Origin: Candidatus Gastranaerophilales bacterium
Lineage (GTDB): Bacteria > Cyanobacteriota > Vampirovibrionia > Gastranaerophilales > Gastranaerophilaceae
DNA: 64,000 nt
Assembly (NCBI GenBank): GCA_017461425.1
Contig: JAFTXY010000013.1
Span: 1-64,000 of the forward strand
Direction of reading: 5' to 3'
Under the pieces are notes generated by a model. It worked only from the letters and a program-made list of their open reading frames with translations, made no database searches and was not told the DNA's origin. Below, in pieces: positions 10,519-16,865 of this stretch (the stretch's first letter is position 1; the number at the start of each line of letters is the position of its first letter). The position numbers were made by a program, and so were the translations under genes.

Positions 10519-10935
10519 ATGAAAAAATTATTAGTTTCATTTTTAACTTTATTATTTTTATCAACTTCGGTTTTCGCTGGAACAATAAATTCTTATGATA
10601 AATATGGTTCAAAAAGTGGCTCATATAAAACCTACGGCTCAACAACAACCAAATACAATAAATATGGGTCTAAAGAAAAAACTTATAAAAAATCTGGAAA
10701 TAAAACGACAGAATATAATAGATATGGTTCAAAAACCGCAACTTATAAAAAATCTGGCTCAACTACAATAAAATATGATAAAAATGGCAGAAAACAAGCA
10801 ACATATAGAACATCAGGTTCTACAACAAATGTCTATGATAAATACGGTAGAAAAACAGGCTATTATAAGAAAAAATCAAATGGAAAAGTTGTAGAATACG
10901 ATAAATACGGGCGTAAAATAGGCACATATAAGTGA
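10519..10935 (+). CDS. secreted YDKYG-repeat protein
   Basis: The product is 138 residues. A signal peptide (MKKLLVSFLTLLFLSTSVFA) precedes about five to six imperfect tandem repeats of 19-22 residues with the pattern Y-[DN]-[KR]-[YN]-G-[SR]-K-x-x-[TS]-Y-[KR]-x-S-G-[SN]-x-T. The repeats are rich in Tyr, Lys, Ser and Gly and likely form extended beta-strand units on the cell surface or in the periplasm. The repeat resembles generic 'YD'-type beta repeats, but no catalytic domain is attached. An AAGGAAAA RBS precedes the ATG. It is convergent with the following gene, whose stop lies two bases away. Confidence 0.8.
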   Translation: MKKLLVSFLTLLFLSTSVFAGTINSYDKYGSKSGSYKTYGSTTTKYNKYGSKEKTYKKSGNKTTEYNRYGSKTATYKKSGSTTIKYDKNGRKQATYRTSGSTTNVYDKYGRKTGYYKKKSNGKVVEYDKYGRKIGTYK

Positions 10936-12121: not shown

Positions 12122-14302
12122 ATGATAGATGGCTTAAACATACCTCAAAATACTGGTTGCAATTGCGAAATTCCGCACATTACAATGTCGCTATTAATCG
12201 ACATTGAAAAAGCCGATAAAAATGATGATGGCAAATTAGATACAACAGAACTTGCGCAACTTATAAGAACAAATAAATCAATGTCTGAATTTAGCGAAGA
12301 AGAAATTCTCCAAATTTTTGATGAAATTCAAACATATACGCAAAAAAATGAAGAAAATAAAGAAGACGAGCTTGCTTCTCTTGAATTAGAGGATTTAGAA
12401 GCATTAATTGATGAACTCCAAGGAGATACCGACACAGAAAACACAGAAGATATAGAAAATATAGAAGAAATTGAAGAAGAATTACCTTTCTTTATTACAG
12501 AAGAAACCGATGAAGCTAATTGGACTTTACATAAAGAATCAGAAAAAGAGCTTGATGAGTTAATTCTTACAAGTGGACTTTTATCTGAAGAAACTGCAGA
12601 ATTAAAAATAAAGAATTCTGAAAACTTAAACAGAGTCTATGAAGAAATTTTAGAACAAAAGAAAAATAACCCAAATATTACAGATGAAGAATTAAGCGAA
12701 TTATATGCTGAATTAACTCAATATCTAGAAGAAAGAAAAACAATAGAAGAAACTATATTAAATGAATTAAAAATAATAGAAGAAGATACACAAAACAAAG
12801 AAAAATCAGAACTTGCAAAAAGTATAAAAGACAAAATAACATTTATACAAGAAAAAAGAGCTAATTTTGATTATGCACAAAACAACCCTGTTGATATAGA
12901 AGATGTTGAAGACACTGAAACAGTACCGCCAACAGAAACTCCAGACAATGCTGGTGGCGGAGGTGGAGGTGCAAAACCTGGTTCCGTAACTCCAGAACCA
13001 CCAGCAGAAACTTTTGATAATATGGATATCAACAAACTAAAATTAGAAGTTGATAAAAGAAAAGGTGCGCATGATGAAGCAAAGGGAAATCTTGAAAAAT
13101 TAAAATCTGAAAATGCGCTATCAGTCAAAAAAAATGATTTAAATAATGCACGAGAAAAATATGATGAAGTATTAAAAAGCATTCCTGAGGGAGATAAGGC
13201 TGTTGATGATAAAAAAGCCGAATTACAACAAAAAAATGAAGAAATAAAAATTCAAGAAGGAACAATTGCGAGTCACAAAGATAGCCTTATTCAAACATCA
13301 ATTACAATAAGCGAAAAGAATTTGGAACTTGCAAGTGCCAAAGAGCGCCTTAGTGCCTTAGAAACTGCGCAAGAAGCTTGGAAGGCTAGCAAATTAGAAG
13401 GTGCAGAACAAGAAGCAGGAAATTTTGATAGCGAAATTATTACACTTAAAGAAACAATTACTACACTTGAAGAAGATATACCAACTTTAGAGGCAAAAAA
13501 AGGAGAGCTTGAAGCATTAATACCTGAAGAAGAAAAAAAATTAGAACAATTAAACCAAGAAAAAGATAAACTTGAAGCAGAACTTCTTGAATTATTAAAT
13601 AAAAATCCTGAACTACAAGCAAGCTTGAAAGAAGCATCTGAAAATGTTAAAAAAATTGAGAATGAAATAAAAGAAATTGAAGAAACAAGAACAGAAGAAA
13701 TCAAAAAAGCACAAGAAGATTTAACAGCAAAAGAAAAATCATATCTTGAAGTAAAATTAATTTATGAAAGACGAACAGCAGAAATAAAATATCCAACAAA
13801 AATGGAACACACTGTAGTCCATGAGGGAGAAGAATATCTAAGCGTACTATCACAAGAAGAAATTGAAAAATTAAGAAAATACGCAGCAGCACATGGTTAT
13901 GCAAATATCTATGAAGGTTGGTCCGATAAATGCTTACATGCGGCTTATGAATATGAATTATACGCAGAAGGCGATAAAGCAAGCAGTTTACATCAATATA
14001 TGTCTGAAGATCTTGATGAAACTATACAAAAAATGGCAGAAACATTAAACAACGGCAATACGGTTGTTGCAAAAGTAAATACTCAAAAAGGAACAAGGCA
14101 CTTTGTACTTGTAATAGGTATCAAAAAAGATGCTAAAGCTCCATACAAAGAAAGTGATTTCTTATGTATTGATAGTTATAACCATGAAGTAGATAAAATG
14201 GGGCAACCAGGAGAAGAGGCTATTAAAAACGGCAACTACAGAACATTATACCCACAACATGGCAAATATTGGCTTGCAAGTCACGTAGTAGATTTTCGAT
14301 GA
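12122..14302 (+). CDS. EF-hand, coiled-coil protein with C-terminal papain/C39-like cysteine peptidase domain
   Basis: The product is 726 residues. A canonical EF-hand loop at residues 32-43 (DKNDDGKLDTTE) has acidic ligands at positions 1, 5, 9 and 12 and Asn at 3. A long acidic region with a PETPDNAGGGGGGA linker (around 270-290) and a coiled coil (about 305-550) follow. The last 130 residues contain DKCLHAAY with Cys604, TRHFVLVIG with His660, and LCIDSYN with Asp684. This is the order and context of C39/papain-like bacterial cysteine peptidases. No N-terminal signal peptide is visible. A calcium-responsive peptidase or amidase is inferred. The promoter is unclear; a terminator follows. 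Confidence 0.65.
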   Translation: MIDGLNIPQNTGCNCEIPHITMSLLIDIEKADKNDDGKLDTTELAQLIRTNKSMSEFSEEEILQIFDEIQTYTQKNEENKEDELASLELEDLEALIDELQGDTDTENTEDIENIEEIEEELPFFITEETDEANWTLHKESEKELDELILTSGLLSEETAELKIKNSENLNRVYEEILEQKKNNPNITDEELSELYAELTQYLEERKTIEETILNELKIIEEDTQNKEKSELAKSIKDKITFIQEKRANFDYAQNNPVDIEDVEDTETVPPTETPDNAGGGGGGAKPGSVTPEPPAETFDNMDINKLKLEVDKRKGAHDEAKGNLEKLKSENALSVKKNDLNNAREKYDEVLKSIPEGDKAVDDKKAELQQKNEEIKIQEGTIASHKDSLIQTSITISEKNLELASAKERLSALETAQEAWKASKLEGAEQEAGNFDSEIITLKETITTLEEDIPTLEAKKGELEALIPEEEKKLEQLNQEKDKLEAELLELLNKNPELQASLKEASENVKKIENEIKEIEETRTEEIKKAQEDLTAKEKSYLEVKLIYERRTAEIKYPTKMEHTVVHEGEEYLSVLSQEEIEKLRKYAAAHGYANIYEGWSDKCLHAAYEYELYAEGDKASSLHQYMSEDLDETIQKMAETLNNGNTVVAKVNTQKGTRHFVLVIGIKKDAKAPYKESDFLCIDSYNHEVDKMGQPGEEAIKNGNYRTLYPQHGKYWLASHVVDFR

Positions 14303-14381: not shown

Positions 14382-14426
14382 TTGTAATATTTGTTAATAT
14401 ATGTTAAAATACCCACATAATTGTGG
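14382..14426 (+). promoter_or_regulatory. promoter and downstream dyad of the YAGP-repeat gene
   Basis: TTGTAA (14382-14387), a 17-base spacer and TGT-TAAAAT (-10 at 14405-14410) are followed at once by the dyad CCACA-TAAT-TGTGG (14413-14426). The dyad would lie across the transcription start and could be an operator or a 5' stem. Confidence 0.5.
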
Positions 14427-14466
14427 AATTTTATAAATAAGATGTTTTTTCTTATAAAGAGGTAAT

Positions 14467-15207
14467 ATGAAAAAGAACAATAAAATTAGACCAGAATTAG
14501 CAAGCTTTATACTAGCAGCGACATTATTAAACACAACTGCTTTTGCAGGATTTTTGCCAATATCTGTTGAAAAAGTTAAAAACATCTCAAATCAGACAGA
14601 AGCAGAAAAGATTTTAAGTGAAATTGAAGCAAAAGAACAAGCTCAATTATCGAATGGAATAAATTACACAATTGCAGATGCAACAACTGTATTTACAGAT
14701 TCTTATTCTACTCCTGCCCTTAAATATGCTGGTCCTGAATTTTTTCCTCCTGTACATCAAGAAATGGATATCATAACTCCATCGATACCAAAATATGCTG
14801 GTCCTGAATTAATACAAATGCCTAAATATGCTGGTCCTGAATTAATACAAATGCCTAAATACGCAGGACCTGAATTAATTATTCAACAAATGCCAAAATA
14901 TGCTGGTCCTGTAATTGACAATTCAATGCATTCAATAGTGCGCTATGCGGGTCCTGAAATGGATACAATAAAACCAACAATGGTTCGCTATGCTGGTCCT
15001 GAAATGGATACAATTATGCCGACAATGGTTCGCTACGCGGGTCCTGAAATCAATACTCAACTACATACACAAGTTGAAAGCCTAATCGCCAGATATGCTG
15101 GTCCTGCTGCTCCTGTATTAACCCCAATTATGCCAAGATACGCAGGTCCTGAAACATTTGAAATTCAATATACAATGCCAAGATATGCAGGTCCTACAGC
15201 TTTTTAA
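14467..15207 (+). CDS. secreted-type repeat protein with eleven [KR]YAGP units, candidate RiPP precursor
   Basis: The product is 246 residues with no Cys. The leader looks like a Sec signal (hydrophobic core LASFILAATLL, then TTAFAG at about 28), followed by a spacer to about residue 85. YAGP occurs eleven times (Tyr at 87, 110, 121, 132, 145, 160, 175, 190, 210, 225, 240), always after Lys (first five) or Arg (last six) and usually before Glu. In the repeat region every Lys/Arg directly precedes YAGP, except Lys169, which precedes Pro. Trypsin-like cleavage would therefore release peptides of 11-23 residues starting YAGP. Synonymous codons vary between units (Ala GCT, GCA, GCG; Pro CCT), so the protein sequence, not the DNA, is conserved. 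A radical SAM/SPASM gene follows 73 bases later. I know of no described class with this core. Confidence 0.8.
   Translation: MKKNNKIRPELASFILAATLLNTTAFAGFLPISVEKVKNISNQTEAEKILSEIEAKEQAQLSNGINYTIADATTVFTDSYSTPALKYAGPEFFPPVHQEMDIITPSIPKYAGPELIQMPKYAGPELIQMPKYAGPELIIQQMPKYAGPVIDNSMHSIVRYAGPEMDTIKPTMVRYAGPEMDTIMPTMVRYAGPEINTQLHTQVESLIARYAGPAAPVLTPIMPRYAGPETFEIQYTMPRYAGPTAF
14725..15195 (+). repeat. degenerate tandem repeat encoding YAGP units
   Basis: Eleven copies of a 12-base unit (mostly TATGCTGGTCCT, with synonymous variants) occur at intervals of 33, 39, 45, 60 or 69 bases. The commonest interval is 45 bases (15 residues). Two adjacent units are near-identical over 33 bases, pointing to recent duplication. 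Confidence 0.9.
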
Positions 15208-15243
15208 ATCAATAAATTGTACTACTTATAATCTAAATTAATA

Positions 15244-15252
15244 TGCTATAAT
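15244..15252 (+). promoter_or_regulatory. extended -10 upstream of the radical SAM/SPASM gene
   Basis: TGC-TATAAT lies 29 bases before the ATG, and no good -35 is visible. The same TGCTATAATTAC string occurs before the YtxH gene at 19843. The enzyme gene could have its own promoter as well as read-through from the repeat gene. Confidence 0.45.
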
Positions 15253-15280
15253 TACCTTAGTATTTATTTGGGAAGTATAA

Positions 15281-16315
15281 ATGTATAATTTAAAAATTGC
15301 CGTTTGGGAGATTACTTTAAGATGCAACATTCATTGTTTGCATTGTGGTTCTAGTGCTGACACAAATGTTAGACCAAAAGAACTTACAACTGATGAAGCC
15401 TTGGATTTAATAGAACAACTTGCTGATTTAGGTTGCGAAAGAGTTGTATTATCAGGTGGTGAACCATTTTTAAGAAAAGATTGGGCGGTTCTTGCAATGA
15501 GAATAAAAGAACTCGGCATGAGAGTTTCTTTTATTTCAAATGGTTATGTTGTAAATGATGATCTTGTAGATTTATTAAAAATAATCAATCCGGCGGGAAT
15601 AAGCTTCAGCCTAGACGGCGGTTGCGCCAAAACCCATGATTATATAAGAGGCAAAAAAGGTGTATTTAAAAGATGTATTAACGCTCTTAAAATTACATCT
15701 GATGCAGGGTTATACTCTTCCGCTGTTAGCTCAATTCATAAAGGTAATATCAAAGAATTACCTCAAATTTTAGAATTATTATTAGAAAACAATGTTTGCG
15801 CTTGGCAAATTCAAACAGCAACCCCACAAGGCAGAATGCCAAGAGAATTAGCGCTAAATGCTGATGAATATTATGAATTAGCTAAATTTATTGCCGATAA
15901 TAAACAAAAATATAAAAACATCTTAAGAATTTTAGCTGCAGATTGCATTGGTTATTATTCTGTTTTATCTCCATATATCGAAGATGCACCTTGGACGGGT
16001 TGCCATGCGGGTATGAGAGTTATCGGAATAGAATCAGATGGAAGCATTAAAGGATGTTTATCTATCCATGGCGACAACTTTATAGAAGGAAATATAAGAG
16101 AACAGTCTTTAAAAGACATATGGACTTCTAAAGAAAACTTTAAATACAACAGAAGATTTTCGCCAAATCAACTAGAAGGCATTTGCAAAAATTGTAAATA
16201 TGGTTCAATATGTCGTGGCGGATGTTCTGAAAAATCCCTAAGTTTCACAGGCACTCGCTATGGAAGCCCTTATTGCATGTATAATTACGAAAAAGAAAAA
16301 GGAATTATTAAATAA
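15281..16315 (+). CDS. radical SAM/SPASM peptide-modifying enzyme (putative maturase)
   Basis: The product is 344 residues. The radical SAM cluster motif is C15-x3-C19-x2-C22 (LRCNIHCLHCGS), with GGEP at 59-62. The C-terminal SPASM domain supplies C241, C259 (after Gly254-x4), then C302-x2-C305-x5-C311-x3-C315 and C332, a complete seven-Cys set for two extra 4Fe-4S clusters. SPASM proteins of this size commonly modify ribosomal peptides (PqqE, AlbA, anSME, cyclophane synthases). Its position just downstream of the YAGP-repeat gene suggests that protein is the substrate. The Tyr, Ala or Pro of each unit could be cross-linked, excised or oxidised; sequence alone does not say. No separate RRE domain is evident. 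It overlaps the convergent TPR gene by eight bases. Confidence 0.85.
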   Translation: MYNLKIAVWEITLRCNIHCLHCGSSADTNVRPKELTTDEALDLIEQLADLGCERVVLSGGEPFLRKDWAVLAMRIKELGMRVSFISNGYVVNDDLVDLLKIINPAGISFSLDGGCAKTHDYIRGKKGVFKRCINALKITSDAGLYSSAVSSIHKGNIKELPQILELLLENNVCAWQIQTATPQGRMPRELALNADEYYELAKFIADNKQKYKNILRILAADCIGYYSVLSPYIEDAPWTGCHAGMRVIGIESDGSIKGCLSIHGDNFIEGNIREQSLKDIWTSKENFKYNRRFSPNQLEGICKNCKYGSICRGGCSEKSLSFTGTRYGSPYCMYNYEKEKGIIK

Positions 16316-16865
16316 ATTTTTCTATGCTTTTCAATAAATCATTTGCTAAAGGATAACATGGATTAATCTTTAAACAAGATTTGATTGATTTATATGCATC
16401 TGTATATTTTTCTAATCCAATATATGCCTTGGCAATATCATAATGATTTTTTGCATATTTTTTATCAAAAGTAACCGCTTTTTTAAAGTACGATACAGCC
16501 AATTTATAATCTTTTTTAGAATAATATATATTACCATACACATTATATGCTTCTGCATCATTAGGCGCTATTTGAATTGCATAATCTAAATATTTACATG
16601 CAGTATCTATATCTTTGATATTTTCAAAAAATACCCAAGCGATGTTATTAGCAGAGCGAATATCATTAGGATTTATTGCTATTGCTTTTTTATAATGAGC
16701 AACAGCTAATTCATATTCACGCATTGCGTCATAAGTAAGCCCAAGATTATAATATGAAACAGAATTATTGACATCTAATGCCAATGCTTGCAAATAATAC
16801 ATCAAAGCCTTTTGAAAATCTTGTTTAAAATATGAATCCGCACCTAATTTAAATAATCTTTGCAT
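16308..16865 (-). CDS. TPR-repeat protein
   Basis: The product is 185 residues formed almost entirely of five tetratricopeptide repeats. Examples are ALMYYLQALALDVNNSVSYY, AVAHYKKAIAINPNDIRSAN and AVSYFKKAVTFDKKYAKNHY. There is no signal peptide or extra domain, so it is probably a cytosolic adaptor. It is convergent with the radical SAM gene and overlaps its 3' end. AAGGTAG lies before the ATG. A link to the peptide system is possible only by position. Confidence 0.85.
   Translation of the reverse strand: MQRLFKLGADSYFKQDFQKALMYYLQALALDVNNSVSYYNLGLTYDAMREYELAVAHYKKAIAINPNDIRSANNIAWVFFENIKDIDTACKYLDYAIQIAPNDAEAYNVYGNIYYSKKDYKLAVSYFKKAVTFDKKYAKNHYDIAKAYIGLEKYTDAYKSIKSCLKINPCYPLANDLLKSIEKFI

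Follow-up and report, generated by a model that had tools for sequence, protein, structure and literature searches.

The window, by which we mean the whole stretch of 64,000 nucleotides of Candidatus Gastranaerophilales DNA that was analysed (source genome completeness 77.7%), contains a cassette of three neighbouring genes with the following features:

14467..15207, plus strand: precursor protein of 246 amino acids with eleven [KR]YAGP sites (ORF translation; R-YAGP proteins stand beside the related enzymes of loci L070-L074)
14467..14547, plus strand: signal-peptide-like N-terminus of 27 amino acids ending in AFA (by eye from the translation)
14722..15195, plus strand: stretch holding all eleven predicted splice sites, K/R-Y-A-G-P (motif positions)
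15281..16315, plus strand: PlpX-like radical SAM/SPASM enzyme of 344 amino acids, a predicted splicease (ORF; NCBIfam, Pfam, tree, residues and structural model)
16308..16865, minus strand: TPR protein of 185 amino acids, convergent, its 3' end overlapping the enzyme gene by 8 bases (Pfam TPR matches; conserved neighbourhood)

The original prediction described a secreted-type protein with eleven [KR]YAGP units, and these were counted in the 246-residue ORF. The YAGP sequences start at residues 87, 110, 121, 132, 145, 160, 175, 190, 210, 225 and 240 and are preceded by Lys five times and by Arg six times, for an expectation from composition of 0.008. The 12-base motif has six spellings, one of them used six times, and the basic residue before it is encoded by three codons (AAA, CGC and AGA), which means that recent copying does not account for all of the repeats. 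The protein begins with a signal-like segment, MKKNNKIRPELASFILAATLLNTTAFA (by eye), and contains no cysteine. Lys169, followed by Pro, is the sole Lys or Arg of the repeat region that does not precede YAGP, as had been noted; the predicted tryptic products are ten pieces of 11-23 residues, the range given originally, and a C-terminal 7-mer which that account had omitted. The precursor had no match in NCBIfam and a single chance-level match in Pfam (E 0.63), and no Nif11 or nitrile-hydratase-like (NHLP) leader was recognised on it in these scans. Upstream, at 12122-14302 (plus strand), a protein of 726 amino acids gave weak matches to EF-hand and C39-like peptidase models and a match to an SMC-like coiled coil (NCBIfam, Pfam). 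Another protein of the window with a signal peptide and YDKYGRK/KYGSK repeats (10519-10935, plus strand) was considered as a second substrate through its KYGS/RYGS repeats and rejected, since among 97 genomes its homologs occur in 17 others, 16 of them with no enzyme match; it is unlikely to be a splicease substrate.

The enzyme gene starts 73 bases past the precursor stop codon, as originally described, and its product has the CxxxCxxC motif (C15, C19, C22) and, as also described there, seven cysteines at the SPASM positions (C241, C259, C302, C305, C311, C315, C332), in agreement with Pfam (Radical_SAM 1.4e-25, SPASM 2.8e-10). The same two features mark the enzymes of PlpXY-type spliceotide systems. 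The top NCBIfam model was TIGR04103 with 247.5 bits, far below its equivalog cut-off of 725 bits. We take this family to be that of PlpX, IPR026482, also in view of the gene neighbourhoods of the L041-L051-type loci described below. The AlphaFold2 model (pLDDT 90) pairs a barrel with a SPASM domain and has no additional domain at the N-terminus; the PDB entries that matched it best were SkfB, PqqE and SuiB. SuiB and SkfB, the streptide and sactipeptide SPASM maturases, are thus among the closest solved folds, at 18-25% identity. Both carry an N-terminal RRE domain, which the window enzyme appears to lack, the first strand of its model running from residue 6.

Relatives were collected with the enzyme sequence only. 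The searches covered 97 genomes, of which 18 (own included) matched, 383 genomes of the order, of which 54 matched, and the GTDB contig collection, where 80 of 317 relatives were kept as contig loci. The five closest of these 80 (L070-L074, 69-75% enzyme identity) all lie beside R-YAGP proteins, two of them in tandem at L071. A profile built from eight precursors matched seven of the 383 genomes, namely that of the window and the six that had supplied its other rows, so that the adjacency of all matches to the enzyme holds by construction and the absence of orphans is the informative part: no precursor without an enzyme neighbour, and no new family member, was found in the 383 genomes. A single-sequence search of 58 genomes (own included) returned the precursor itself and a chance-level match in G038, and missed the precursor of G014. 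The pairing of enzyme and precursor is therefore real, because the five closest relatives of an enzyme-only scan all adjoin R-YAGP proteins and no orphan turned up in the 383 genomes; the earlier proposal of a precursor with its modifying SPASM enzyme held up, also in the search that it had suggested for repeat proteins lacking such a neighbour. Over the 80 contig loci, at least two [KRLM]Y[AG][GVIPLS] motifs were present in 27 of 379 ORFs within 1.5 kb of the enzyme versus 4 of 468 farther away; 24 loci have a nearby ORF of this kind, and many distant loci have single-site peptides by eye. Among the 21 close loci (L070-L085, L087, L090, L092, L094, L100), 19 have a motif-bearing partner, L081 and L094 having none, and in the wider clade no substrate was visible at three deltaproteobacterial loci (L128, L144, L146). 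Within its genus the cassette is rare: the 27 other genomes gave an enzyme of 65% identity in G014, an other-branch enzyme of 40% in G002 and a broken remnant in G012. The remnant (G012:C54:25947-26315, loci L022 and L039), truncated and with a stop codon, suggests that the cassette was lost there.

The original prediction had overlooked the TPR gene. Of the 13 contig loci of at least 57% enzyme identity, 11 have a TPR homolog beside the cassette (L070-L078, L080, L081), and in the two others the contig ends 56 bases (L079) and 0 bases (L100) after the enzyme. At L076 and L080 the gene order is altered and the TPR gene retained, on the same strand as the precursor. The four best TPR matches in the 97 genomes (E up to 5.3e-25) lie next to the enzymes of G000, G014, G062 and G047, no other genome of the set having a complete close enzyme, and the subsequent matches (4e-20 and weaker) are other TPR proteins. 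No TPR homolog stands beside the enzyme of G080, which the contig end truncates, or beside the remnant of G012, and none was found at 12 loci of the longer-enzyme group. Judged by these neighbourhoods, the TPR gene is a conserved third member of the cassette, with close homologs found only there. According to excerpts of PMC10352776, some unrelated Bacteroidales RiPP clusters also have TPR genes, so that such a neighbour is not peculiar to this system.

We then compared the sites in the relatives' precursors. The partner at L075, where the enzyme is 65% identical to that of the window, has MYGVP/QPLYGVP, and KYAPP occurs in partners at L076, L080 and L025. Other partners have KYGIP with KYAIV (L077), MYAVP/KYAPP/KYALP/KYGIP within an RTX-like protein (L079), mixed KYGIP, RYAVP and MYAVP (L100), LYGV (L083, L084, L087), MYGI (L085), VYGI (L092, L172), KYGANIG (L181, L182), AMYAAP (L184) and VYAYIPP (L185). 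Ala after Tyr appears equivalent to Gly, because YG and YA sites co-occur within single precursors (L073, L077, L079, L100). In 125 hand-collected sites of 28 precursors from 27 loci, Tyr is followed by Ala in 73 and Gly in 52, the collection pattern having demanded one or the other; the second residue after Tyr is not fixed (G, V, I, P, A, Y, L and others). The residue before Tyr, X, is K in 52 sites, R in 24, L in 19, M in 16, V in 12 and Q in 2. This hand-picked set omits L090 (a near copy of L085), L081, L094, L180, L183 (KYMPP type), L186 and L187, as well as further copies of contigs already used, the remoter Gastranaerophilales loci of KYGV type and every locus from archaea, clostridia and elusimicrobia, and the beta-roll YG of L078/L079 was excluded by requiring Pro. 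The class of X was uniform in 0.905 of within-precursor site pairs, versus a mean of 0.507 after shuffling (highest value in 2000 shuffles 0.629), a uniformity that is inflated by tandem duplication and, read from sequence, is as expected of P1 residues. As far as these alignments go, the constant part of the motif is Tyr followed by a small residue, and the relatives' sites are close to the known X-Tyr-Gly splice site.

These comparisons bear on the release of eleven YAGP peptides by a trypsin-like protease, the model of the original prediction, in which the Lys and Arg residues are cleavage sites. The placement of every Lys and Arg of the window's repeat region except Lys169 before YAGP is in its favour, whereas precursors beside relatives of the enzyme have Met, Leu or Val in that place, and enzymes 57-65% identical to that of the window adjoin precursors with Met or Leu before Tyr (L075, L100). 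The basic residue is not the conserved part of the motif, because relatives carry Met or Leu there. Moreover, if Tyr is spliced a YAGP peptide cannot form. We consider this model very improbable.

The kinship of the enzyme points to splicing. It was compared with 14 TIGR04103-scoring enzymes of the same phylum, 10 over the family cut-off and 4 below, and was 30-37% identical to them: 35-37% over nearly the full length for 12 (205-219 bits) and 30-31% for the other two (170 and 177 bits), versus 25% and 23% (74 and 44 bits) for two further radical SAM proteins encoded in the window's genome. Of 386 genomes of the phylum, 28 gave a TIGR04103 match (E 1e-60), and in 20 the match exceeded the cut-off; these genomes are presumably photosynthetic cyanobacteria. 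A small ORF with an xYG site was visible in 20 of the 21 loci over the cut-off (the exception being L052). All 11 loci of the L041-L051 group have an [RQ]PLYGV site, e.g. QPLYGVVWPP, and a PlpY-like small LPRxxW ORF after the enzyme, a layout which, from its sequences, is the PlpX arrangement. An initial tree, which included other radical SAM proteins, suffered from long branches and was replaced by one of 78 enzymes. In it a branch with 100/100 support separates 68 related rows, including the window and the PlpX-like enzymes, from ten SPASM enzymes with a score for the heme b synthase model TIGR04545, of which two exceed its cut-off; TIGR03913, TIGR04133 and other SPASM families were outside this tree. 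For both trees proteins longer than 480 amino acids were cut to their last 420, and the second left out L041, L047, L048, L058, L120, L134, L142 and long-branch rows. Residues G23, S24, Q176, Q178, G224, G249 and G258 are present in 95-100% of 74 related sequences, in 14/14 PlpX-like enzymes but in no more than one of the ten outgroup enzymes, and WQxQ is common to the enzyme and the PlpX-type spliceases. With the ten TIGR04545-scoring enzymes as outgroup, the 100/100 branch and the shared residues indicate common descent of the enzyme with the broad splicease clade, and by these sequence characters it is grouped with the PlpX-type spliceases.

A different modification of Tyr, such as a cyclophane, an ether, another cross-link or an oxidation, would agree with the chemical diversity of SPASM enzymes and with sites that hold Tyr with conserved neighbours. 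Many NCBIfam SPASM families score with the enzyme, the second-best, TIGR03913 (220 bits), just 27 bits below TIGR04103, and all 17 enzymes of the alignment match both models. Such a modification is nevertheless improbable, since the shared residues and the QPLYGV-type sites match the PlpX systems and the variable residue two after Tyr provides no constant cross-link partner there. Tyrosine excision, listed originally as one option, is now the favoured chemistry on sequence grounds.

We therefore favour, with a probability of roughly 0.7, a three-gene cassette in which the [KR]YAGP sites would be spliced by tyramine loss to Lys/Arg ketoamides and the protein then exported. The PlpX-type splicease would act prior to export at each of the eleven [KR]-Tyr-Ala-Gly-Pro sites, removing a tyramine equivalent from Tyr and rejoining the chain, so that the preceding Lys or Arg would become an alpha-keto-beta-amino (ketoamide) residue followed by Ala-Gly-Pro, and the residue before Tyr would provide the side chain next to the ketone. 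The predicted mass change is -135.0757 Da per spliced site, up to -1485.8 Da in the precursor. The gene linkage, the motif family and the kinship of the enzyme are observations, whereas the chemistry, the part played by TPR, export and inhibition are inferred. Several points stand against this splicing scheme, among them the TIGR04103 score far under the cut-off, the close loci L081 and L094 with no motif-bearing partner, and the TIGR03913 match of all aligned enzymes. The window has Tyr-Ala sites only (none of its 11 YAGP sites is X-Tyr-Gly, homologs having XYG, XYA or both), whereas the published motif is X-Y-G, and X-Y-A processing was not found in the excerpts of published splicease accounts. 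Furthermore, PlpX works with PlpY, of which no homolog was found in the window or the 80 contig loci with an HMM of 14 PlpY-like ORFs (ORFs of at least 30 amino acids); the positive controls L041 and L055 fit the row-selection pattern of the HMM and show only that the scan works. The TPR protein, on which no signal peptide was seen, probably serves to present the repetitive substrate to the enzyme and so takes the place of PlpY.

After export through the precursor signal peptide, eleven basic ketoamide warheads would be displayed, and their simplest role would be reversible, multivalent inhibition of trypsin-like gut proteases. X is K, R, L, M or V in 123 of the 125 sites, a set that resembles the preferences of trypsin-like and chymotrypsin/elastase-like proteases, and by this restriction we read the spliced window protein as perhaps a multivalent inhibitor of trypsin-like proteases, the weakest step of the scheme. 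In the excerpts consulted, PMC10373908, citing Scott et al. 2022, states that beta-residues confer potent protease inhibition and that XYG can direct several events within one precursor, and PMC11117315 presents spliceotides as protease inhibitors. The same splicing could serve another use, the ketoamides cross-linking, rigidifying or protecting a surface protein as electrophiles or backbone-editing residues, with no protease inhibition. Related precursors are whole proteins of up to 565 amino acids, lipoprotein-like by eye (L076, L025) or with an RTX beta-roll (L078, L079), and splicease-made ketoamides enter tetrazine ligation, according to published excerpts. A structural role would not predict an X nearly confined to five residues and mostly uniform per precursor, and in those excerpts the published spliceotide activity is protease inhibition; we regard this use as rather unlikely, and inhibition remains our reading of the function.

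The system was compared with PlpX/PlpY of Pleurocapsa sp. PCC 7319 (IPR026482). Both have a radical SAM/SPASM enzyme of the same clade and several sites per precursor, in which Tyr follows a variable residue and precedes a small one, and the LYGV/LYGI sites of PlpX-type precursors recur in relatives of the window enzyme (L075, L084, L087). The window's system differs in the Ala after Tyr, the basic residue before it, the eleven sites, the signal-like N-terminus in place of a Nif11/NHLP leader, and a TPR partner with no PlpY homolog. Scott et al. 2022 (Chem 8:2659), as represented in excerpts of citing papers, predicted 939 splicease systems, broadly distributed and giving protease-inhibitory beta-residues. 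Among the matches listed, nothing on point was found in the literature on YAGP or Gastranaerophilales RiPPs, and no paper among those listed, or in the excerpts consulted, describes such splicease systems with XYA sites and a TPR partner. On sequence evidence the system is one that would work like a splicease system, outside the strict PlpXY type, and the original view that it belongs to no described class had to be given up, since enzyme and motif fall with the PlpX-type spliceases and the X-Tyr-Gly site. A bolder reading, which we put forward tentatively and at less than even odds, is a TPR-assisted, PlpY-free splicease branch with both X-Tyr-Ala and X-Tyr-Gly as cutting sites, which makes a secreted protein of these gut bacteria, non-photosynthetic relatives of cyanobacteria, into an eleven-warhead, Lys/Arg-selective ketoamide inhibitor of trypsin-like proteases, including those of host digestion. 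If true, gut Gastranaerophilales would make ribosomal proteins with many ketoamide residues of gene-written side chain, as genetically encoded multivalent protease inhibitors; the known splice site would widen to X-Tyr-Ala, Lys/Arg ketoamides would be offered directly, and the TPR protein would be a candidate partner that may replace PlpY for engineering.

Some further loci were observed in the course of the analysis. At L183 (1041-1358, minus strand) a small protein with three TKYMPP, i.e. Met after Tyr, lies beside a splicease-type enzyme. The RTX-like calcium-binding beta-roll proteins of L078 (4235-5932) and L079 (2878-4488) carry MYAVP, KYAPP, KYAIP or KYALP, with KYGIP in L079. Enzymes of the splicease-type clade, some in tandem, are also found at L086 (5013-5886), L088, L093, L097, L098, L109 and L136, in Thermoplasmatota, Asgard archaea and an Elusimicrobium; the short peptides beside them end roughly in Y[GAS][ST][IV]..KDF, and several of these loci have a methyltransferase-like gene whose product has a C-terminus that looks TPR-like by eye. 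At the clostridial locus L127, an ORF beside a splicease-type enzyme (596-1084) combines a double-glycine (SGIAGG) leader with an EYGAP site, and a second such ORF (1-285) has MYAAPP.
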